Assembly (NCBI RefSeq): GCF_019061185.1
Contig: NZ_JAHQZU010000002.1
Location: 186,001 to 250,000, forward strand
Source of the DNA: Paracoccus sp. Z118
GTDB lineage: Bacteria > Pseudomonadota > Alphaproteobacteria > Rhodobacterales > Rhodobacteraceae
DNA length: 64,000 nt
Direction of reading: 5' to 3'
In this document: one piece after another, positions 5,199 to 50,063 of the stretch
Layout of the letters: each line of letters opens with the position of its first letter
How positions within the stretch are numbered: position 1 is the stretch's first letter
The notes under the pieces: generated by a model
Seen by the model: the letters and a program-made list of their open reading frames with translations, nothing else
Database searches by the model: none
What the model was told of the DNA's origin: nothing
Position numbers and translations under genes: made by a program

Positions 5199-7061
5199 AT
5201 GCGAATCTTCAATATTGCTGACGAATCCGCGATTGCGCGTGTGCTGCGCGTGATTTCCGTGGCCGTGCTGACTGTTGCAGCGATGCCGCTGGCAAGTGCC
5301 GCCGAGCCGTCCCATGCCATTGCAATGGTTGGAAAACCCGCGCTTCCCCCCGGCTTCACCCACCTGCCCTATGCCAACCCGGACGCGCCCAAGGGCGGCG
5401 CGATTCGACTGGCCGAGCCGGGTGGTTTCGATTCGCTGAAGCCGTGGGTGCTCAAGGGCAATCCGGCCTGGGCGGTGGGGACGCATGTCGCGGAAACGCT
5501 GATGTTCCGTTCGATCGACGAGCCGTTCACCCTTTACGGCCTGCTGGCGGAAACCGTGGAGACCGACCCTGAGCGCACTTGGGTCGAGTTCACCCTTCGC
5601 CCCGAGGCCCGGTTTTCCGACGACTCGTCCGTCACCATCGAGGACGTGATGTGGTCCTACGAGACGCTGGGAACCGAAGGCCACCCCCGCTACGCCGGCG
5701 CCTGGGCCAAGGTCGAGCGGATGGAGCAGACCGGCCCCCGGTCCGTCCGCTTCACCTTCAACACCCCCGACCGCGAATTGGCGATGCTGATGGGGATGCG
5801 CCCGATCCTGAAGAAGGCGCAGTGGGAAGGGCAGGATTTCAGCCAGTCCGGGCTGGAGCCGCCGATCGGCTCCGGCCCCTATGTCATCGACCGCGTCGAT
5901 CCGGGCCGCTCGATCAGCTTCGCCCGCGATCCCGACTGGTGGGGCGCGGACCTGCCCGTGAACCGCGGGCTGCACAACATCGACACCATCCGCTACGATT
6001 ATTTCTCGGACACCAACGCCATGTTCCAGGCCTTCAAGGCCGGCGAGGTGAACGTCTGGCGCGAACTCGACGGCGCGAAATGGGCCAGCGAATACGGCTT
6101 TCCGGCGCGGGTGGAGGGGAAGGTCGTGCAGGCGGAAATCCCGCATGAACGGCCCTCGGGGATCATGGGTTTGGCGATGAACACCCGCAACCCGGTCTTC
6201 GCGGACTGGCGCGTGCGGCAGGCGATGATCGAGGCGTTCAACTACCAGTTCATCAACGCCGCCCTGACCGGCGGGGTGGACCCGCGCATCACCAGCTATT
6301 TCGCGAACTCCGATCTCGCCATGCGCCCTGGCCCCGCGGACGGCGAGGTGGCGGACCTGCTGGCGCCCTACGCCGCGGACCTGCTGCCCGGCACGCTTGA
6401 AGGCTACACGCTGCCTGACGGCAGCCCGGACGCGCTGAACCGCAAGGGGCTGCGCACGGCGCTGGCGCTGCTGGAGGACGCCGGCTGGACGGTGGCCGAA
6501 GACGGGATGCTGCGCCGCGCGGATGGTTCGGCGTTCCAGTTCGAGATCCTGCTGAACCAGTCCGGCAGCGCCATGCGTTCGGGCAGCGAAGTGCTGAAGA
6601 TCGTCGGCATCTATGTCGAGGCGCTGAAGCATATCGGCATCCGCCCCGAAGTGACGCTGCTCGACAGCGCCCAGTTCATCGAGCGCACCAACCGCTTCGC
6701 CTTCGACATGGCGTGGTATGAGCGCGGCCTGTCGCTGTCGCCGGGGAACGAGCAGGCGCTCTACTGGGGCTCGGCCAGCGCGACGCAGCAGGGCAGCAAG
6801 AACTGGATGGGCGTCACCTCGCCCGCCATCGACGCGATGATCGCCCGGATGGTGAACGCGACCGACGCGCAGGACTACACCGCCGCCGTCCGCGCGCTGG
6901 ACCGGCTGCTGACGGCAGGGCGCTATGTCATCCCGGTCTCGTTCTCGCCCGTCAGCCGGATCGCGCATTCATCCGATCTGCACTTTCCGCAGCAGACGCC
7001 GATCTATGGCGACTGGCCGGGCTTCATGCCGGAAACCTGGTGGGCCGCCCCGGCCCGCTGA
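5199..7061 (+). CDS. Extracellular solute-binding protein family 5, YejA-like
   Basis: A 620-residue periplasmic binding protein for an oligopeptide-type ABC importer. The N-terminus has a signal peptide (about residues 1-34, ending ASAAEP). It is followed by HAIAMVGKPALPPGFTHLPY and NPDAPKGG, motifs strongly reminiscent of E. coli YejA, the microcin C/peptide-binding protein. The length fits YejA. The ATG at 5199 has AAGGGG 11 bases upstream. The partner permease and ATPase genes (yejBEF type) are not next to it, so it is an orphan here. The ligand is unknown; peptides are the family default. Confidence 0.9.
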   Translation: MRIFNIADESAIARVLRVISVAVLTVAAMPLASAAEPSHAIAMVGKPALPPGFTHLPYANPDAPKGGAIRLAEPGGFDSLKPWVLKGNPAWAVGTHVAETLMFRSIDEPFTLYGLLAETVETDPERTWVEFTLRPEARFSDDSSVTIEDVMWSYETLGTEGHPRYAGAWAKVERMEQTGPRSVRFTFNTPDRELAMLMGMRPILKKAQWEGQDFSQSGLEPPIGSGPYVIDRVDPGRSISFARDPDWWGADLPVNRGLHNIDTIRYDYFSDTNAMFQAFKAGEVNVWRELDGAKWASEYGFPARVEGKVVQAEIPHERPSGIMGLAMNTRNPVFADWRVRQAMIEAFNYQFINAALTGGVDPRITSYFANSDLAMRPGPADGEVADLLAPYAADLLPGTLEGYTLPDGSPDALNRKGLRTALALLEDAGWTVAEDGMLRRADGSAFQFEILLNQSGSAMRSGSEVLKIVGIYVEALKHIGIRPEVTLLDSAQFIERTNRFAFDMAWYERGLSLSPGNEQALYWGSASATQQGSKNWMGVTSPAIDAMIARMVNATDAQDYTAAVRALDRLLTAGRYVIPVSFSPVSRIAHSSDLHFPQQTPIYGDWPGFMPETWWAAPAR

Positions 7062-7152
7062 GGAAGCCGCCGCAACATTGGGAACCGTGGCGCGGCTTTC
7101 CCGTTTCGCTCACAAGAAGGGGCACGCCCCGCAGAGCAGAAGGAATCGCCCC

Positions 7153-7503
7153 ATGAAGTGGTCGCATGTGCAGGAGAACTGGTCCGCGTTCTACGAGGCC
7201 ATCCTGGAAAAATGGCCCGACGCCGACGAGGCCGAGCTTGACGAGATCGATGGCGACCAGCGCGCCTTCGTGACCTATGTCGCGCAGATCACCGAGGCCG
7301 AGCCCTCGGACGCCCGCGACGAGATCCGCGAATGGCTCGCGGGCGAGCTGCCCGCCGATGTCGTGATGGACCCGATGCACGACAACCATTCGATCAACCT
7401 GTCGGCCAAATACGTGCCCGAGGGCGAGGACGAACTGGCCGACGACGCCCGCTTCGGCGACGACGACGACTACCCCGACGACGGCGACACCGAGCGGCGC
7501 TAG
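7153..7503 (+). CDS. Acidic CsbD-like protein
   Basis: A 116-residue, very acidic soluble protein. The first 65 residues follow the CsbD pattern: an early Trp motif (WSAFYEAILEKWP), then DEIDGDQRAFVTYV, then EIREW. CsbD proteins are small stress-induced helical proteins of unknown biochemical role. The second half is a low-complexity Asp/Glu tail (DDDDYPDDGD) not seen in short CsbD proteins. AAGGA at 7140-7144 serves the ATG at 7153. An upstream in-frame ATG at 6925 lies inside the preceding gene and was rejected. The CsbD assignment is by eye. Confidence 0.65.
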   Translation: MKWSHVQENWSAFYEAILEKWPDADEAELDEIDGDQRAFVTYVAQITEAEPSDARDEIREWLAGELPADVVMDPMHDNHSINLSAKYVPEGEDELADDARFGDDDDYPDDGDTERR

Positions 7504-41510: not shown

Positions 41511-41876
41511 TCACGACTTGCGCTCACGGCGTTCGGCCGCGGCCTCGTCGGTCAATTGCGCCAGCACCCGCGCACGGCCGAATTCCCGCGCGGCCTTCGC
41601 GCGGGCAGCCGCGAAACCGGGGGCGAGGCGCGACAGCTCCGCCTCGGCCCGCAGCAGGGAGTCGGCATTGCGGCCGGCGATCGCCGCCATCGCCCGCAAG
41701 TCCGGCAGCGAGTCCGGCGCGGCGGCGGCGCAAAGCTCCCCCAGCTCGCCGCGGATCGCGCCGACACGGGATTCGACGGCGACGACATGGGCGCGGAAGG
41801 CCGCGAACCGGCGCAGCTCCAGGTCGGATTTCAACTGCGCCACATGCGCGAGGGCGCGGAGCTTCGCTTCGGTCAT
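41511..41876 (-). CDS. Coiled-coil protein at end of flhB operon, FliJ-like
   Basis: A 121-residue, Ala/Arg/Glu-rich helical protein with no membrane segment (ALAHVAQLKSDLELRRFAAF to RVLAQLTDEAAAERRERKS). The size and helical-hairpin composition resemble FliJ-type export chaperones, but sequence identity is too weak to be certain. The start overlaps the flhB stop as ATGA, so it is the last gene of the leftward flagellar operon. Confidence 0.45.
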   Translation of the reverse strand: MTEAKLRALAHVAQLKSDLELRRFAAFRAHVVAVESRVGAIRGELGELCAAAAPDSLPDLRAMAAIAGRNADSLLRAEAELSRLAPGFAAARAKAAREFGRARVLAQLTDEAAAERRERKS

Positions 41877-42970
41877 GCCGCTCCTCCGCCCTGCCCGGCC
41901 CCCCAGCCCTGCCGCGCGCGCACCCGCATGGCCTCGGCAAAGCGGATCGCGGCGGCGACGGGGCCGAACTGGGCATGGGGGATTTCCTCGCCCAGCTTGA
42001 CCGTCGCGTGCAGGGCGCGGGCGCAGGGCGGGTCGGACCAGATCGGCACGTCATGGGCGCGGGCGCGTTCGCAGATGCGGGCCGCGACCTCGTCCACGCC
42101 CTTGGCCAGGCAGACCGGCGCCCGCCCGCTGCCCCGCTTCCATTCCAGCGCCACGGCGTAATGGGTGGGGTTCACGATCACCACGTCGGCCTTTTCGACA
42201 TCCGCCAGCATTGTTCCCAGTGCGATATCCACCGCCCGTTGCCTGCGGGCCTGCTTCAGATGCGGGTCGCCCTCGCTTTCCTTGTGCTCGTCCTGCACCT
42301 CCTTGCGGGTCATGCGGTTGCGGCGCAGGAACTCCAGCCGTTTCCAGAACAGGTCGATCCCGGCGAAGACGACCGCGATGGCCAGCGCCAGCAACAGCAC
42401 TTGCCGCATCAGCAGCGCAAGCGCGGCGGTCCACTGATCCTCCGCCAGAAAGGCCGCGCTGCCGAGCCGGCCCATGAGGCTGCGGAACAGCAGCCAGCCC
42501 CCCGCCGCGACAAGCGCGGCTTTCGCGAGCGACAGGGCGAAGGTCATCAGCCCCTGCCGGCCGAACTTCTGGCCCGCGTTCTTCAGCGGGTTGATACGGT
42601 TCAGGTCGGGCGACAGCTTCGAGGGCGTGAAGACGAAGCCGCGCTGCACCACCAGCCCCAGCAGCACCAGCGCAGCGGGCGCAGTCAGCAGCGCCAGCAC
42701 GATGACGCCGCTGCGCCGCCCCAGCGCGGTGGCGATGTCGAAGGCCGAGGCGGGCGCCACGGGCCATGCCTCCGCCCCCAGCAACCGCGCGGCCATCGCC
42801 GACCAGCCGCCGAGCGCGGCCGCCGCGACCATCGTCAGGGCAAGCACGCTGCCCAGCCAGGACAGCGCGGTCGATGTCTCCGGCGAGCGGGGGATGTCGC
42901 CCTTTTCGCGCGCCCGGCGCAGCTTCTGCTCGGACGGGTCGTGCTGGCGGTCCTCCTTGTCCTCGCTCAT
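41873..42970 (-). CDS. flhB: Flagellar export switch protein FlhB
   Basis: A 365-residue inner-membrane export gate protein. A basic N-terminus (DPSEQKLRRAREKGDIPRS) precedes four membrane helices and a cytoplasmic domain with the self-cleaving NPTH at residues 267-270 (VIVNPTHYAV). Cleavage there switches export from hook to filament subunits. The sequence looks complete and unbroken. It follows fliR by 9 bases and overlaps the coiled-coil gene. Confidence 0.95.
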   Translation of the reverse strand: MSEDKEDRQHDPSEQKLRRAREKGDIPRSPETSTALSWLGSVLALTMVAAAALGGWSAMAARLLGAEAWPVAPASAFDIATALGRRSGVIVLALLTAPAALVLLGLVVQRGFVFTPSKLSPDLNRINPLKNAGQKFGRQGLMTFALSLAKAALVAAGGWLLFRSLMGRLGSAAFLAEDQWTAALALLMRQVLLLALAIAVVFAGIDLFWKRLEFLRRNRMTRKEVQDEHKESEGDPHLKQARRQRAVDIALGTMLADVEKADVVIVNPTHYAVALEWKRGSGRAPVCLAKGVDEVAARICERARAHDVPIWSDPPCARALHATVKLGEEIPHAQFGPVAAAIRFAEAMRVRARQGWGAGQGGGAA

Positions 42971-42979
42971 CCGGCGCCC

Positions 42980-43717
42980 CTACGGCAGCACGGGAAGCGG
43001 CACCGACAGCACCGCGTCGGCCCAGATCCGCAGGATCGCGGGCGACATGACGGTCAGCGCGACCAGCGCCAGCAGGATCGCCGCCGGCGCGGCGATGAAG
43101 ACCACCGGCAGCGCCGGCATCACCCGCGCGATCACCCCCGACAGCGCCTGGAACAGGAAGCCGCCCAGCACGAAGGGCGCGGCGATCACCAGCGCGAGGC
43201 TGAAGCTGCTGCGGACCAGCTCCACGATGGCGGGAAGCAGCCCCTGAATGTCGGGCCAGCCGCCCGCCGGGCGCAGCCGCAGGCTGTCCGACAGAAGGTC
43301 GCAGACCATGATCGGCAGCCCCAGCGCCATCAGCACGGCAAGCCCGGCGAGATGCAGCAGGTTGCCGATCGGATGCGGCGCCATCTCGTTCGAGACGCCG
43401 AGTATCTGCGACAGCGAGGCGGTCTGCGCGATCGCCGTCGCCCCGATGTCGAGCGCCATCGCGATCAGCCGCACCATCAGCCCCAGCGCGGCGCCCGTCA
43501 CGATCTCGGCCGCGACCAGCAGACCAAGCGCGCCCGGCGTCGCGGCATCCGGCGCGGCGGTGGTTCCGGCCAGCAGCGGCGTCAGCGCGAATGCCAGCGC
43601 CACCCGCACCCGGACCGGCAGCGGCTGTTCCCCGAAGCCCGGCAGCGCCAGCAGGCAGGCCTGCACCCGCGCATAGACGAGGATCAGCGGCAGCAGCGCC
43701 GACGCGGTGAAGGTCAT
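42980..43717 (-). CDS. fliR: Flagellar export protein FliR
   Basis: A 245-residue membrane protein of the FliPQR export gate with about six hydrophobic segments (first LLPLILVYARVQACLLALPG, then VRVALAFALTPLLAG and TASLSQILGVSNEM-type sequence). The PGFG and LPVRVRVALA motifs are family typical. The start at 43717 overlaps the flhA-fragment stop as ATGA. No frameshift is seen. fliQ is not in the window. Confidence 0.93.
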   Translation of the reverse strand: MTFTASALLPLILVYARVQACLLALPGFGEQPLPVRVRVALAFALTPLLAGTTAAPDAATPGALGLLVAAEIVTGAALGLMVRLIAMALDIGATAIAQTASLSQILGVSNEMAPHPIGNLLHLAGLAVLMALGLPIMVCDLLSDSLRLRPAGGWPDIQGLLPAIVELVRSSFSLALVIAAPFVLGGFLFQALSGVIARVMPALPVVFIAAPAAILLALVALTVMSPAILRIWADAVLSVPLPVLP

Positions 43718-44770
43718 GTCTCGACCGTGCCCAGCAGCCGCATCCGGGCGGCGGGGTCCACCTCGTCGATGCCGAGGACCGGCCAGCCGATCCCCGCCGC
43801 CGCCGCCATGGCCCGGACGGCGCGGCGGCGGTGGTCGGGAACGATCAGCGCCGGCTGCGCCCCCGCCGCAAGCGTCGCGGCGGTGCGTTTCAGCTGCGCC
43901 GTCATCGACTGGATCAGCGGCTGGCTGAGCGCGCCCGGTTGGCGTCCCGCCTCGGCCTCGGCGCGGACGAACTCGGCCTCCCACCCCGGATGCAGCTGGA
44001 TCACGTCCAGCCGGCCTTCGGCGTCTGCCAGCTGTTCGGTGATCTGGCCGCGCAGGCGGCGGCGGACCACGTCGCAGGCAAGCTCGGGTTCGGCGCTGCG
44101 GGATTCATAGACCGCCTCGACGATCAGCGGCAGGTTGCGGATCGACACCCGCTCGGCCAGCAGCAGCCGCAGCACCGCCAGCAGCAGGTCGGGCGCCACC
44201 TTGTCGGGGATCATGCTGTCGAAGAGCCGCTGATAGGTCTGGGCCCGTCCCTCGTCGCTGAGCCCGCGCAGCTCCTGGATCAGCCGCTGCATGGCGGACA
44301 GGGTGAACAGCGCCGGCAGGTTGGCCTTGACGGTTTCCATCAGGTGGGTGGACAGCACCTCCATCGGGGTGACGACCGTCGCCCCTGCGATGGCGGCGCC
44401 GTCCTGATCGGCGGGCGGGATCCAGCAGGCGGGGCTGTCATAGACCGGCTCGCGCGTCGGATCGCCGGTCAACGCGGCCAGCGTCTCGGCGTCCCCCAGC
44501 GCGAGGATCTGGCCGGGGCGGAGGTTGCCGCGCGCGCGGACGACGCCGTGGATGCGGATGACGTAATCGCCGCCATCCAGCGACAGCGCATCGGTGATCC
44601 GCACCTCCGGCAGGATCACGCCGAGGCTGCGGGCGATGTGCAGGCGCAGGTTGTTGATGCGGGGGCCAAGGCCCCGCGCGCCGTCCAGCGCGCTGGCGAT
44701 GAGGTCGGGGCCGATCTCGACGCTGATCTCGTCGGTGTCGAGGATGTCGCCCATGCGCGGGCGGGTGTCG
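43714..44770 (-). pseudogene. flhA: flhA fragment: cytoplasmic half only
   Basis: About 346 codons (first in-frame ATG at 44754, MGDILDTDEISVEIGPDLIA) match the C-terminal cytoplasmic ring domain of FlhA, through LPALFTLSAMQRLIQEL and VVTPMEVLSTHLMETVK. FlhA is normally about 690 residues; the eight-helix membrane half is missing. FlhA-like reading continues only a few codons upstream (IDTRPRMGD) to about 44770-44780, where motA begins. No ribosome site precedes the ATG. A soluble FlhA cannot form the export gate, so I call it a pseudogene. Confidence 0.85.
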
Positions 44771-45515
44771 ATGCCACGAGGACGGACTTGATGACCTCGT
44801 AGAACGCCAGATCCTGCTTGGTCACCTCGCCCAGCCGCTGCGCCAGCGGCGCCACGAACCCATAGGCGAGGAACACGCCCAGGAACGTGCCGACCAGCGC
44901 CCCGCCGATCATCCCGCCCAGCACCTCGGGCGGCTGGTCGATCGAGCCCATCGTCTTGATGATCCCCAGCACCGCCGCCACGATCCCCAGCGCCGGCAGC
45001 GCGTCGGCCATGTTCTGCAGCGCGTGCGGGACATGCATCGCTTCGTCCTTCATCAGCGAGATGCGGCGGGCCAGCATGTCCTCGACCTGATAGGGGTCGT
45101 CATAGTTGAGGCTGGCCGAGCGCATGGTGTCGGTGATCAGCCTGACCGCCTGCTCGTCGGCGAGGATCTGCGGATAGGCCTGGAAGATGGCCGAGGTTTC
45201 CGGCGTCTCGATATGCTCCTCCAGCTCGACCGGGTTCGAGCGGGCCAGCCGCAGCAGCTGGAACAGCAGGCACAGCACCTGCTGGTGATCGGCATCGTGC
45301 CATTTCGGCCCCTTGAAGGCGCGAATCAGCCCGCCGAGCGTGTGCCGCAGCACCGCCGAACTGTTCGACAGCAGATAGGCGCCGACCGCCGCGCCGCCGA
45401 TCATCATCAGCTCGAACGGCAGCGAGTGCATGATGACGCTCATCTTGCCGCCGGCGAGGATGTAGCCGCCGAAGACCATCGCGACGGTCAGGACGATGCC
45501 GATGATGCCGAACAT
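44616..45515 (-). CDS. motA: MotA stator protein with foreign out-of-frame C-terminus
   Basis: Residues 1-248 are normal MotA: a stator subunit with four membrane helices, the cytoplasmic charge region (LLRLARSNPVELEEHIETP) and pore Pro residues in DALPALGIVAAVLGIIKTMG and YGFVAPLAQRL. After SVLVA (about base 44773) the frame enters flhA sequence in another frame and adds 51 Ser/Thr/Ala/Pro-rich residues before a stop. About 40 native C-terminal residues are lost. Stability and function are doubtful. No motB is in the window. Confidence 0.9.
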   Translation of the reverse strand: MFGIIGIVLTVAMVFGGYILAGGKMSVIMHSLPFELMMIGGAAVGAYLLSNSSAVLRHTLGGLIRAFKGPKWHDADHQQVLCLLFQLLRLARSNPVELEEHIETPETSAIFQAYPQILADEQAVRLITDTMRSASLNYDDPYQVEDMLARRISLMKDEAMHVPHALQNMADALPALGIVAAVLGIIKTMGSIDQPPEVLGGMIGGALVGTFLGVFLAYGFVAPLAQRLGEVTKQDLAFYEVIKSVLVASTPARAWATSSTPTRSASRSAPTSSPARWTARGALAPASTTCACTSPAASA

Positions 45516-45518
45516 GGG

Positions 45519-46061
45519 TCAGTCCTTCATGCTGCGGGGGGCGCCCATGCGGGCGGTCAGGATCGCCGCCTGCGAGGGCTCCAGCGCGGCGATGATGCGT
45601 GCGCCGACCTCGGGCTGGACGCGGGCGAGGATCTCGGCCCCGAAATCGGGGGGCAGCGCCCCTAGCACCTCGGCCGCCTCGGCCGGCTTCATCACGTCAT
45701 AGACGGCGATCAGCCGGGCGATCCCCTCATCCGCGCCCGTGGCGCGGGCGGTGCGCGTGTCGTCCAGCGCCTGTTTCGCGGCGCGAAGTTCGGTCAGGCG
45801 GGCCGTCAGCCGCTCCTCGGCGGCGGCGATCTCTGCCTCGCGCTGGTCCAGCGCCTCGATCCCGCGATCCACCGCGATGCCGCGCAGGCGCAGCGTCTCG
45901 GCCAGCGCCACCGCTTCGGGCACGTCGCCGCAGCCTTCCATGAGCGCCGGCGTCGCGGCGAAGGCGAGCATCCGGCTGCCGGGGTCCGCAAGCTGCGCGG
46001 CCTGCAGCGCCGCGACGGTGCCGAGCGCCAGTGCGGCGGTCATCAGAAGGCCCCTACGCAT
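45519..46061 (-). CDS. MotE family protein
   Basis: A 180-residue exported or membrane-anchored protein with an N-terminal hydrophobic segment (LLMTAALALGTVAALQAA), a coiled coil (about residues 60-105, ALDQREAEIAAAEERL) and a C-terminal helical domain (YDVMKPAEAAEVLGALPPDFG and ILARVQPEVGARIIAALEP) typical of MotE/MgtE-N-like proteins. MotE chaperones MotC in rhizobial motility. It ends 3 bases before motA and overlaps the preceding gene by 8 bases. Confidence 0.8.
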   Translation of the reverse strand: MRRGLLMTAALALGTVAALQAAQLADPGSRMLAFAATPALMEGCGDVPEAVALAETLRLRGIAVDRGIEALDQREAEIAAAEERLTARLTELRAAKQALDDTRTARATGADEGIARLIAVYDVMKPAEAAEVLGALPPDFGAEILARVQPEVGARIIAALEPSQAAILTARMGAPRSMKD

Positions 46062-46386
46062 CGGCCGCTTCCCGGCGGCGCAGGCGCGGGCGGCGCGGGG
46101 CGGTGTCCGCGACCATGCTGCGCTGAAGCGCCCAATAGGCGCGCTCGGCCTTGGCCCGCTCGATCTCGGCCGCAAGCTCGCGCGTGGCGGCGGTCGCCTC
46201 GGCTCTGGCGGCCGCCATCCCGGCTTCCAGCCGGCCGATCTCGGCGGTCATCACGGCGATCGCGCCGCCGAGCCCGGTTTCCAGATCATTGAGCCGACGC
46301 AGCCGGCGCGAGAGCAGCAGGCAGAACGCCGCCAGCCCCCCCGCCGACACGCACAGCGCAAGTTGCAGCATCAGGGGCAGCGTCAT
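46054..46386 (-). CDS. Membrane-anchored coiled-coil protein of the fliL operon
   Basis: A 110-residue protein: one N-terminal helix in the membrane (MLQLALCVSAGGLAAFCLLL), then a basic turn (SRRLRRLNDLE) and a long Ala/Glu coiled coil, ending in a basic tail (RRPRLRRREAADA). Equivalent small genes sit between fliL and motA in other Rhodobacteraceae; function unknown. The start overlaps the fliL stop as ATGA. Confidence 0.7.
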   Translation of the reverse strand: MTLPLMLQLALCVSAGGLAAFCLLLSRRLRRLNDLETGLGGAIAVMTAEIGRLEAGMAAARAEATAATRELAAEIERAKAERAYWALQRSMVADTAPRRPRLRRREAADA

Positions 46387-46859
46387 TGGATTCGGAACTC
46401 CGTGATGAGCAGGTCGCGCACCGCATCCTCGCCCAGCACGAAGCGGGCGCGTGTGGCGAGTTCGGCGCGGATGATTTCAAGGATGCCGCGGCGGTCAAAA
46501 GCGGCGGGATCGATTTCCGACAGGAAGCCGGTGAAGGCGTCGGTCACGCGCGGCACCAGCAGCTTCGCGTTGCCCAGATGCGCCGGATCGACATCGAGCA
46601 GCGCGGTCAGCACCAAGCTGCGCCCGCCGGCCCCCGGCAGGGTCAGGACGATCCGCGGCACGTCGAGGAAGGCGACCTCGGGCGCGGCAACCGCCGGCGG
46701 CTCGGGCGCGCCGTGAAGCAGCGACGCGGGTGACCACAGCCCCGTCCATGTGGTGCCGAAGCCCGCCGCCAGCGCGATGACCGGCAGCAGCACCGGGATC
46801 AGCCGCTTCAGCAGCGGCCTGCGCGGCGCGGCGAGAGTGTCTGCGGTGATGTCGGCCAT
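46383..46859 (-). CDS. fliL: Flagellar basal body-associated protein FliL
   Basis: A 158-residue single-pass protein: cytoplasmic head with basic residues (RRPLLKRL), one membrane helix (IPVLLPVIALAAGFGTTW) and a periplasmic stomatin-like domain with VAFLDVPRIVLTLPG and LLVPRVTDAFTGFLS. FliL rings the stator and supports torque. First gene of the leftward operon, diverging from fliF over 108 bases. Confidence 0.85.
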   Translation of the reverse strand: MADITADTLAAPRRPLLKRLIPVLLPVIALAAGFGTTWTGLWSPASLLHGAPEPPAVAAPEVAFLDVPRIVLTLPGAGGRSLVLTALLDVDPAHLGNAKLLVPRVTDAFTGFLSEIDPAAFDRRGILEIIRAELATRARFVLGEDAVRDLLITEFRIQ

Positions 46860-46967: not shown

Positions 46968-48521
46968 ATGCAGAAGCTGCAGGACTACTGGAACGCGCGC
47001 AGCGGGCAGCAGCGGATGACGCTGATTGCCGCCTTCGCGCTGACCTTCCTCGCCGTGGCCGCCTTCGCCTTCGCCTCGAACAGGACCGAGATGGCGCTGC
47101 TTTACGGCGGGCTGGACGGGGCGCAGTCGGGCTCGATCATGGCCGAGGTGGAAAAATCCGGCGTCGCCTATCAGGTGCGGGGCGATTCGATCTGGGTGGA
47201 TGCCGGCCAACGGGACCAGCTGCGGATGACGCTGGCGGGGCTGGGCCTGCCGAGCGCGGGCGGCGCGGGATACGAGATCCTCGACGGCATGTCCGGCTTC
47301 GGCACCACCTCGCAGATGTTCGACGCCGCCTACTGGCGCGCGAAGGAGGGCGAGCTGGCACGCACGATCCTCGCGCTGCCGAATGTCAAGGCGGCGCGGG
47401 TCCATCTCGCCGTTCCGACCGGGCGCGGCTACCGGCGCGAGGCGGCGGGCACCGCATCGGTCACGCTCACGACCAGCGGCGCGGCGGTGGACCGCACGCA
47501 GGCGCAGGCGCTGCGATTCCTGATCGCCTCGGGCGTGCCGGGCATGACGCCGGAGCGTGTCACCGTGATCGACAGCGCGCGGGGCGTGGTTTCCAGCGGC
47601 GACGAGATGGCTGGTGCCGACCGCGAGGCCGAACTCAAGCGCAACGTCGAGCGGTTGCTCGAATCCCATGTCGGCCCCGGCAACGCCATCGTGGAGCTGA
47701 ACATCGCGCTGCAGACCGAAGCCGAGCAGCTCACCGAGCAGCGATTTGACCCGACCCAGCGGGCGCTGATCTCGCAGGAAAGCGAGGAGACGACGGACCA
47801 GTCCACGAACCAGTCAGGCGGCCCTGTGACGGCTTCGTCGAACCTGCCGGAAGGAACCGGCGATCAGGACGACCAGAGCCGCGCCAACAGCTCGGAAACC
47901 CGGCAGCGCTCGAACTACGAAGTCAGCCGGATCACCCGCGAGGTCGTCAGCCAGCCCGGCGCGACCCGCCGCCTGACCGTCGCCGTTCTGGTCAACGGCG
48001 TGCCCCAGACCGTCGCCGGGGGCGAGGTGACGCTGGTCCCGCGCCCGGAGGCCGAGATCGAGACGCTGCGGGAACTCGTCGCCTCGGCGGTCGGCTTCGA
48101 CGAGGGCCGGGGCGACGTGGTCACGGTCAAGTCGCTGCCTTTTGCGGCGTTGGGGGAGGATGGAACGCTGGCCCGGCGCGGCGGGCTGGTGGACCGGCTG
48201 GAGCCGAACGGGCTGATCCGGCTCGCGCTGATCGGGCTGTTCGCGCTGCTCATCGCCGCCCTTGTCCTGCGCCCCGTGCTGCGCGCCCGCGCCCAGGGCG
48301 CGGCGGCCCCGCTGCTGGACGGCTCGGGCCCGGCCCTGCCCGCACCCGATCTGCCCGAGATCCCCGCGCTCGCGGCGCTGTCGATGGCCGAACCTGAATA
48401 CGAGTTCCCGTCCTTGCCCGCCGCCGATCCGGTTGCCCGTCTGCGCGAGCTGATGCGCGAGCGCCAGCAGGACAGCCTGCGGATCCTCTCGGGCTGGATC
48501 GACGAGAAGGAGAAGGCGTGA
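46968..48521 (+). CDS. fliF: Flagellar MS-ring protein FliF
   Basis: A 517-residue membrane protein that builds the MS ring and houses the export gate. The first membrane helix is at residues about 18-37, followed by ring-building motifs (MALLYGGL, GFGTTSQMFDAAYWRAKEGELARTI split as in the family). A second helix (LIRLALIGLFALLIAALVLRP) precedes the cytoplasmic FliG-binding tail. The length is at the short end of normal. The sequence is intact. Confidence 0.95.
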   Translation: MQKLQDYWNARSGQQRMTLIAAFALTFLAVAAFAFASNRTEMALLYGGLDGAQSGSIMAEVEKSGVAYQVRGDSIWVDAGQRDQLRMTLAGLGLPSAGGAGYEILDGMSGFGTTSQMFDAAYWRAKEGELARTILALPNVKAARVHLAVPTGRGYRREAAGTASVTLTTSGAAVDRTQAQALRFLIASGVPGMTPERVTVIDSARGVVSSGDEMAGADREAELKRNVERLLESHVGPGNAIVELNIALQTEAEQLTEQRFDPTQRALISQESEETTDQSTNQSGGPVTASSNLPEGTGDQDDQSRANSSETRQRSNYEVSRITREVVSQPGATRRLTVAVLVNGVPQTVAGGEVTLVPRPEAEIETLRELVASAVGFDEGRGDVVTVKSLPFAALGEDGTLARRGGLVDRLEPNGLIRLALIGLFALLIAALVLRPVLRARAQGAAAPLLDGSGPALPAPDLPEIPALAALSMAEPEYEFPSLPAADPVARLRELMRERQQDSLRILSGWIDEKEKA

Positions 48522-49084
48522 TGGCCGCCGCGATTCTCAGGCTGCAATCCTTCGACCAGCCGCTGCCGCTGCCCGAAGCCATGTTCACCCAGGCCGACCT
48601 CGACGCCGCGCACGAGCGGGGCGCATCGGCCGGGGCGGCGCAGGCCCATGATGCGCAGTTGGCGGAGATCATCAGCCGGCTTTCTGCATTGGCGGCGACC
48701 ATCCGCGAGGCCGCGGACCGGCGCGCGGCCGTTCAGGCCGAGGTCATCGCCGCGCTCGCGCCGATGCTGCTGGCCTTCGCCGACGGGGCGCTGCCGATCC
48801 TTGCCCAGTGCCGGCTGGAAGCCGCGTTGCGCCAGGAACTGCAGCGGCTCGCGGACACCGCGACGCCGCTCGCTGCCCGGCTGTGCTGCGGGCCTGACCA
48901 GAGCGCCACGCTGCAGCAATGCCTGAGCGATCTGCCGGACGCCACGTTTGAGCTCGACCCCACCGGGCCGGAGGGGACGGTCGAACTGGCCGTCGCGGGC
49001 GGGCGCATCACCTTCGACCGGGCGGCGCTGGCGGAATCGTTCCGCGCGCTGCTGATGGAAATCCTTGACGGAGCACCGCAATGA
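48521..49084 (+). CDS. FliH-like flagellar export regulator
   Basis: A 187-residue soluble protein. It has an N-terminal helical region with a FliH-like stretch (FTQADLDAAHERGASAGAAQ) and a C-terminal alpha/beta part (GTVELAVAGGRITFDRAALAE) resembling the FliH/YscL end that binds the FliI ATPase. Its place between fliF and fliN fits. The ATG at 48521 overlaps the fliF stop (TGATG) behind AGGAGAAGG; a GTG at 48518 is the alternative. No fliI is in the window. Confidence 0.6.
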   Translation: MAAAILRLQSFDQPLPLPEAMFTQADLDAAHERGASAGAAQAHDAQLAEIISRLSALAATIREAADRRAAVQAEVIAALAPMLLAFADGALPILAQCRLEAALRQELQRLADTATPLAARLCCGPDQSATLQQCLSDLPDATFELDPTGPEGTVELAVAGGRITFDRAALAESFRALLMEILDGAPQ

Positions 49085-49335
49085 CCGACATCGCCTCGCT
49101 GATCGCCACCGACCATATCCAGGTCGAGATCGAAATCCGGTTGGGCCGCACGCGGCTGACGGTCGCCGAACTGTCGCGCCTGCGCCCCGGCGACGTGCTG
49201 GCGCTGGATCAGGACATCTCGGACGGGGTGGAGATCTGCATCGGCGACAAGGTCATCGCCCGCGGCGAGCTGGTGGACGACGCCGGCAGCGAGGGGCGGC
49301 TTTCCGTCCGCATCCTGTCCGCGGGCGAGGCATGA
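49081..49335 (+). CDS. fliN: Flagellar motor switch protein FliN
   Basis: An 84-residue protein forming the SpoA domain of the C ring: VEIEIRLGRTRLTVAELSRL, RPGDVLALDQDISDGVEICI and KVIARGELV are the expected motifs. FliN sets rotation direction with FliM and FliG and anchors FliH. It lacks the N-terminal extension of E. coli FliN, as is common in alphaproteobacteria. Its start and stop overlap both neighbours by 4 bases. Confidence 0.9.
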   Translation: MTDIASLIATDHIQVEIEIRLGRTRLTVAELSRLRPGDVLALDQDISDGVEICIGDKVIARGELVDDAGSEGRLSVRILSAGEA

Positions 49336-50063
49336 TACGCCCGCCGGTCGCCGCCGCCCTCGCCGTCGCCCTGCTGCTGCCGCAGGCGGCGGGGGCGCAG
49401 GGGCTGGACCAGATCGCCCAGTCGGCCGCTGGCGGGCTTGGCGACAATGCGGTCCTGATCTTCCTCGGATTGACGATCCTGGCGCTGGCGCCCGGCTTCG
49501 CCATCATGATCACCTGCTTTCCCTTCGTGGTCACGGTGCTGTCGATCCTGCGCCAGTCGATCGGGCTTCAGCAGTCGCCGCCCAACATGCTGATCGTCAG
49601 CCTCGCGCTGTTTCTGACCTGGTTCGTCATGGACCCGGTGCTGCGCGAGGCGTGGACCGTTGCCGGCGCGCCGTTGCAGCAGGGCGTGATCTCGCTCCCC
49701 GAGGCGTTCGAGCGCGGGATCGAGCCGTTCCGCGCCTTCATGTCCGCCCGCACGAATCCCGACACCCTCGCCGCGCTGGTCGAGGTCGCACCCGCGCCGC
49801 CAGAGCCTGCGGCCGAACCGGCGCTGTCCGTGCTGGTGCCGTCCTTCATGCTGTCGGAGATCCAGCGCGCGTTCGAGATCGGCTTCCTCGTCGCGCTGCC
49901 ATTCCTGATCATCGACCTGGTGGTCTCGGCGGTGCTGATGTCGATGGGGATGATGATGGTGCCGCCGGCGATTGTGGCGCTGCCGTTCAAGCTGGCGTTC
50001 TTTGTCGTCGTGGACGGCTGGGGCCTGATCGCCGCCGCGCTGGTGCGCGGCTATCAGGTCTGA
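49332..50063 (+). CDS. fliP: Flagellar export gate protein FliP
   Basis: A 243-residue precursor with an N-terminal signal sequence (AALAVALLLPQAAGAQG) and four membrane helices. Signatures are MITCFPFVVTVLSILRQSIG, QSPPNMLIVSLALFLT and LVPSFMLSEIQRAFEIGF with IDLVVSAVLMSMGMMMVPP. It forms the pore with FliQ and FliR. ATG 49332 overlaps the fliN stop as ATGA. Last flagellar gene of this operon. Confidence 0.95.
   Translation: MIRPPVAAALAVALLLPQAAGAQGLDQIAQSAAGGLGDNAVLIFLGLTILALAPGFAIMITCFPFVVTVLSILRQSIGLQQSPPNMLIVSLALFLTWFVMDPVLREAWTVAGAPLQQGVISLPEAFERGIEPFRAFMSARTNPDTLAALVEVAPAPPEPAAEPALSVLVPSFMLSEIQRAFEIGFLVALPFLIIDLVVSAVLMSMGMMMVPPAIVALPFKLAFFVVVDGWGLIAAALVRGYQV

Follow-up and report, generated by a model that had tools for sequence, protein, structure and literature searches.

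A probable deletion joining motA to the cytoplasmic half of flhA in Paracoccus sp. Z118

Among the flagellar genes of Paracoccus sp. Z118 is a motA that runs out of frame straight into the second half of flhA. We consider it very likely that this join reflects a genuine deletion of about 1.4 kb, arisen in nature or in culture in a lineage that is losing its flagellum, and we expect the cell to be non-motile. The deletion lies in a window of 64,000 nucleotides (C84:186001-250000, to which all coordinates below refer unless another locus is named) of the Paracoccus draft genome G000, which comprises 3,610,959 bases in 161 contigs and is 99.0% complete. It would have occurred inside a minus-strand operon with the order fliL..motA-(small ORF)-flhA-fliR-flhB and joined the remainder out of frame. 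The predicted products left behind are a MotA with 51 foreign terminal residues and an isolated FlhA cytoplasmic domain lacking its own start region.

Structure of the motA-flhA junction

Read along the minus strand, motA keeps its native sequence up to residue 248 of 288 and gives way directly to codon 343 of the 694 codons of flhA, in another frame. Residues 1-248 of P. marinus MotA align to 45515..44772 (minus strand, 89.5% identity), and residues 343-694 of P. marinus FlhA align to 44772..43717 (89.2% identity) in a frame other than that of motA. These alignments confirm the frame switch and the missing segment described in an earlier, sequence-only reading of this DNA; together with the P. 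aeridis alignments they also show that its coordinates, its placement of the break at residue 248 and its estimate of roughly 340 lost codons were right. The junction itself sits at 44771..44773 (no strand), where about 1.40 kb is absent relative to both P. aeridis and P. marinus. In the P. aeridis alignment the break falls at 44773|44771, matching L068 6896|8298, and 1,401 bases have no counterpart. Summed from the alignments, the gap in P. marinus coordinates is 1,408 bases, made up of 40 codons of motA, a spacer of 262 bases and 342 codons of flhA. Given the recovery of the C-terminal half of FlhA at 215 bits, and the position of motA upstream of flhA in 28/28 Paracoccus loci, this pattern is far beyond chance. 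As read from the sequence, the deletion would have taken 40 codons from the 3' end of motA, a small gene, and codons 1-342 of flhA, which encode its whole membrane domain. The sequence-only reading had the 3' end of motA and the membrane half of flhA correct, and overlooked the small gene between them. Its proposal of one deletion is supported by the undecayed state of the adjacent genes and by the exact alignment of the junction to two relatives, so that a single deletion would explain the join.

The motA remnant keeps native codons 1-248 of 288 (44772..45515, minus strand). Its membrane and proton-channel region is present, with matches to MotA_N and MotA_ExbB (PF20560 and PF01618), and TIGR03818 spans residues 1-252. 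The native C-terminal tail is absent, the P. marinus alignment stopping at residue 248. In its place, the 299-aa ORF continues out of frame through flhA for 51 foreign codons and a stop (44616..44771, minus strand). Relative to the flagellar stator protein MotA (TIGR03818), the window protein thus shares residues 1-248, including both domains, and differs in having 51 out-of-frame residues in place of the last 40. The truncated protein still scores above the TIGR03818 cut-off (311.0 vs 303.8).

The flhA remnant (43714..44771, minus strand) corresponds to codons 343-694 in P. marinus numbering and encodes the cytoplasmic domain only. The first in-frame ATG is at 44754, and the fragment is open from there to the normal stop at 43714. 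The named relatives recovered with this fragment place the genome in Paracoccus; over the 346 residues of the fragment the closest are the P. marinus and P. aeridis proteins, each 90% identical. The PF00771 match runs from about 322-326 to 655 of 657 profile positions and shows that the cytoplasmic domain is present, while the eight-helix N-terminal domain is gone along with the first 342 codons. Compared with the flagellar export gate protein FlhA (PF00771, TIGR01398), the window copy therefore has a C-terminal cytoplasmic domain that is 89-90% identical to that of P. marinus and P. aeridis and lacks the whole membrane domain; it falls below the curated TIGR01398 cut-off (250.8 vs 772.1 bits). 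In Salmonella FlhA, residues 1-327 have been reported to form the eight-helix membrane domain and residues 328-692 the cytoplasmic domain, and the membrane-domain substitutions R94A, D208A and D249A reportedly gave no complementation at all of a null mutant (PMC3139655).

Gene order and the small gene in Paracoccus

We compared the arrangement across a synteny set of 31 loci, from which three Gemmatimonadetes were dropped to leave 28 Paracoccus loci, some of them labelled Paracoccus sp. without a species name. The sequence-only reading had raised the question of whether motA and flhA are adjacent in relatives. All 28 loci have motA upstream of flhA, and in most of them (26/28, the exceptions being L078 and L101) a small gene was detected between the two, with weak matches of 38-60 bits in 24 of the 26. 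The nearest relatives, P. marinus and P. aeridis, both have the order motA (288 codons), small gene, flhA; in P. marinus the small gene has 87 codons and flhA 694. The spacer between motA and flhA measures 238-309 bases in 26/28 loci, 697 in L078 and 1,701 in L090. In the latter, from P. bogoriensis, about 1.5 kb of extra sequence between about 3246 and 4727 separates motA from the small gene. The P. marinus small gene (L069 6226-6486) has a start that resembles a signal peptide by eye and no match in an NCBIfam search; it is possibly an unnamed flagellar gene.

In 27/28 loci, flhA is recovered as a single segment of more than 60 bits starting at codons 1-20 of the P. marinus protein, which rules out a motA-flhA fusion as a genus-wide arrangement. 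The 28th, P. cavernae (L101), has flhA broken into five segments. Close relatives of the window thus carry a whole flhA in the same synteny, where the window carries a disrupted one.

Integrity of the assembly and copies elsewhere in the genome

An assembler could have skipped 1.4 kb in a strain that has the whole motA-flhA interval, and a draft in 161 contigs with an operon whose remainder looks functional gives this idea some ground. We nonetheless regard such an artefact as rather unlikely. The junction is inside a contig of 270,625 bases. A genome search with the 76 bases spanning it gave a single full match; the remaining matches listed, from 40 of 49 candidates scored, do not exceed 29 bases. 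Because the two flanks of the junction in the relatives have only a few bases in common by eye, no repeat is present that would invite a collapse. The missing sequence was also not found stranded on another contig: for the 1,401 missing P. aeridis bases, the sole match in the draft, with 40 of 408 first-look candidates scored, was one of 23 bases (E 6.6e-4). A second lesion in flgH, described below, further argues against an artefact, though it could itself be a sequencing error.

The sequence-only reading had suggested looking for a second flhA or motA elsewhere in the genome and named a full-length flhA as a possible replacement. We found neither a second whole flhA nor another motA in the 99% complete draft: MotA_N occurs once, and a PF00771 profile search of the whole draft returned two matches only, the window fragment and a 77-codon piece on contig C74. 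This piece (L002 1501-1731 / L065 about 6924-7154) lies beside genes for a DDE transposase and a phage integrase, ends at a stop and shows 66% protein identity to L003, the FlhA of another Paracoccus. Because it represents another type of FlhA, this remnant is ruled out as a replacement; it may be what is left of a second flagellar or type III system. Repeats around it were examined, and nothing in them bears on the flhA deletion. Within the draft, then, no functional replacement for the pseudogenised operon was found. The idea that a mobile element carried the missing half elsewhere is likewise unsupported: there is no transposase ORF at the junction, and the 40 scored candidates mentioned above include no copy of these 1,401 bases.

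State of the remaining flagellar genes

The genes on either side of the junction are intact. Downstream on the minus strand lie fliR (42980..43717, Bac_export_1), whose ATG overlaps the flhA stop by eye, flhB (41873..42970, Bac_export_2 1-334/335) and a small conserved ORF that is FliJ-like by position only and has no Pfam or NCBIfam match (41511..41876). Upstream on the same strand are a gene with an MgtE_N domain, called MotE-like from resemblance and position (45519..46064), a conserved ORF of 110 codons that aligns to the relatives and has no family match (46054..46386), and fliL (46383..46859). The plus strand carries fliF (46968..48521), a conserved ORF that is FliH-like by position only, again with no family match (48518..49084), fliN (49081..49335) and fliP (49332..50063). 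The genes fliL, fliF, fliN and fliP were identified by domain matches and alignment to the relatives. Twelve cluster ORFs were compared in all: flhB, fliR, the flhA C-terminal part, motA 1-248, the MotE-like gene, fliL, fliF, fliN, fliP and the three without a family. Every one aligns to P. aeridis and P. marinus in one segment, and for fliL, the MotE-like gene, fliF, fliN, fliP, fliR and flhB the segment covers nearly the whole length in both relatives, in agreement with the sequence-only reading that these flanking genes are complete.

We asked how selection has acted on this cluster, using a three-species tree. As the tree is unrooted, the stem is counted with the window branch, and relaxation of short duration would escape notice. 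Window-branch dN/dS ranged from 0.13 to 0.44 for the 12 cluster ORFs and from 0.17 to 0.37 for five neighbouring non-flagellar controls, named by eye, with the flhA C-terminal part at 0.20, motA at 0.21 and a glutamate dehydrogenase-like control at 0.23. The window branch exceeds the branches of both relatives in several flagellar genes (flhA C-terminal part 0.20 vs 0.11 and 0.08; motA 0.21 vs 0.08 and 0.11; fliF 0.31 vs 0.13 and 0.18), a possible sign of some relaxation. We do not read it so, because three of the five controls are raised in the same way (0.23 vs 0.16 and 0.12; 0.24 vs 0.06 and 0.15; 0.17 vs 0.05 and 0.10). Long relaxed selection on the remaining operon, beyond that seen in the control genes, is therefore not apparent from dN/dS. 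Since the cluster genes are full-length and their dN/dS is in the control range, the deletion looks recent; measured against the divergence of the species, too little time has passed for decay to become visible. Normal-looking selection on the remaining genes fits a recent event and would fit an assembly error equally well.

Outside the window we examined 17 flagellar genes. P. aeridis served as the reference for eleven (fliI, flgB, flgC, flgF, flgG, flgA, flgH, motB, flgE, flgK and flgI) and six were examined by Pfam domain only (fliE, fliQ, flgL, flagellin, flaF and flbT); the names flgB and flgF come from position and look, flgF also having a Flg_bbr_C match. Sixteen of the 17 have a single open frame. 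The exception is flgH (L123 15279-16015, contig C139), which lacks one base relative to P. aeridis and P. marinus and is frameshifted, aligning to P. aeridis FlgH (FlgH by Pfam) in two frames over residues 10-136 and 132-251. We take this as a second flagellar lesion of the genome, though a sequencing error could also account for it. The idea that the rest of the flagellar set has not yet decayed thus holds for the window genes and fails for flgH.

One could suppose that the cytoplasmic domain of FlhA on its own, and MotA with its changed tail, remain useful to the cell, whether in regulating export or otherwise. The FlhA fragment is open throughout from ATG 44754, starting near the domain border, its window-branch dN/dS is 0.20 and MotA passes its family cut-off. 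We nevertheless find a functional split highly improbable: ATG 44754 has no ribosome site visible by eye and is inside the overlapping motA frame, the arrangement was not seen by eye in the other 124 Paracoccus genomes, dN/dS cannot separate recent loss from function, and flgH is broken too. It is more improbable still that the soluble FlhA domain and the remaining operon are kept for a role outside motility, such as docking export substrates or chaperones without export; if that were true, a cut falling very close to the border between the domains would have freed the FlhA export platform from the membrane channel.

flhA lesions across the genus

FlhA has a match in 121/125 Paracoccus genomes (G000 included), and 115/125, counted by eye, carry one or more full-length, uninterrupted FlhA matches, whatever the type. 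The ten without one are G000, G023, G052, G059, G101 and G121, together with G087, G100, G105 and G108, which have no match at all; two of these last four are less than 90% complete. Like the window, several genomes have flhA interrupted or partly deleted while keeping some flagellar genes, with lesion types that differ from the window deletion. Both G052 and G121 have a frame break in flhA, G059 has an internal TAG, about 179 N-terminal codons were not found in G101, and G023 (79% complete, its coordinates matching those of P. cavernae, L101) has several frame breaks. In G010, which keeps a second-type FlhA elsewhere, the main-type flhA is reduced to roughly its final 110 codons. There, at L106 8054-8463, a larger deletion has put the 3' portions of fliF and flhA side by side, and motA and fliL were not found beside the remnant. 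Across Paracoccus, flhA lesions thus recur in varied form, although some of them may stem from errors of assembly or sequencing; G023 and perhaps G121 may be error-rich assemblies.

Loci L107, L108, L109 and L110 show these frame breaks, the internal TAG and the apparent N-terminal deletion, the first three near the end of the membrane domain. The lesions of G052, G121 and G059 cluster with that of the window near this point, an observation made post hoc on few genomes that may reflect chance or sequencing error.

In some Paracoccus papers, flhA may denote a formaldehyde dehydrogenase gene. Among the matches listed in a literature search of titles and abstract openings, none concerned flhA loss in Paracoccus. 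For P. marcusii, flhA has been reported among flagellar assembly proteins (PMC13036509).

The deletion could also have arisen in laboratory culture, motility having been lost under relaxed or opposite selection. This form of our preferred explanation, a genuine deletion, is in keeping with dN/dS values within the control range, and motility loss in vitro has been reported for Campylobacter jejuni in an evolution experiment (PMC7677240). We hold a culture origin to be the less likely course, though a realistic one: both lesions, motA-flhA and flgH, would need to be recent, and the flhA lesions in several other Paracoccus genomes suggest recurrent natural loss in the genus.

Predicted consequences for the flagellum

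If the deletion is genuine, as we favor, the consequences for the cell would be severe. With the whole membrane domain gone, FlhA should not support export. The type III export gate of the flagellum is then expected to fail, leaving the cell with no rod, hook or filament. The overlap of the fliR start with the flhA stop means that translation of fliR and flhB may suffer as well. Judged from the sequence, the flagellum can probably no longer be built. Since flgH, encoding the L-ring protein, is also broken, the flagellar system would be at an early stage of decay, and we expect a cell that does not move.

The case is one of ordinary pseudogene formation and flagellar loss, and it offers a clean snapshot of an early stage, with two lesions and the other examined flagellar genes still open. 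It also carries a caution for annotation. MotA passes the NCBIfam cut-off and the neighbouring genes count as present, so automatic annotation may show near-complete flagella and gene counting could wrongly predict motility. Four Paracoccus species have been described as non-motile (PMC10302349; PMC11540602), as against full-length FlhA in 115/125 genomes; for this genus, a frame-by-frame check of flhA and flgH would be useful.
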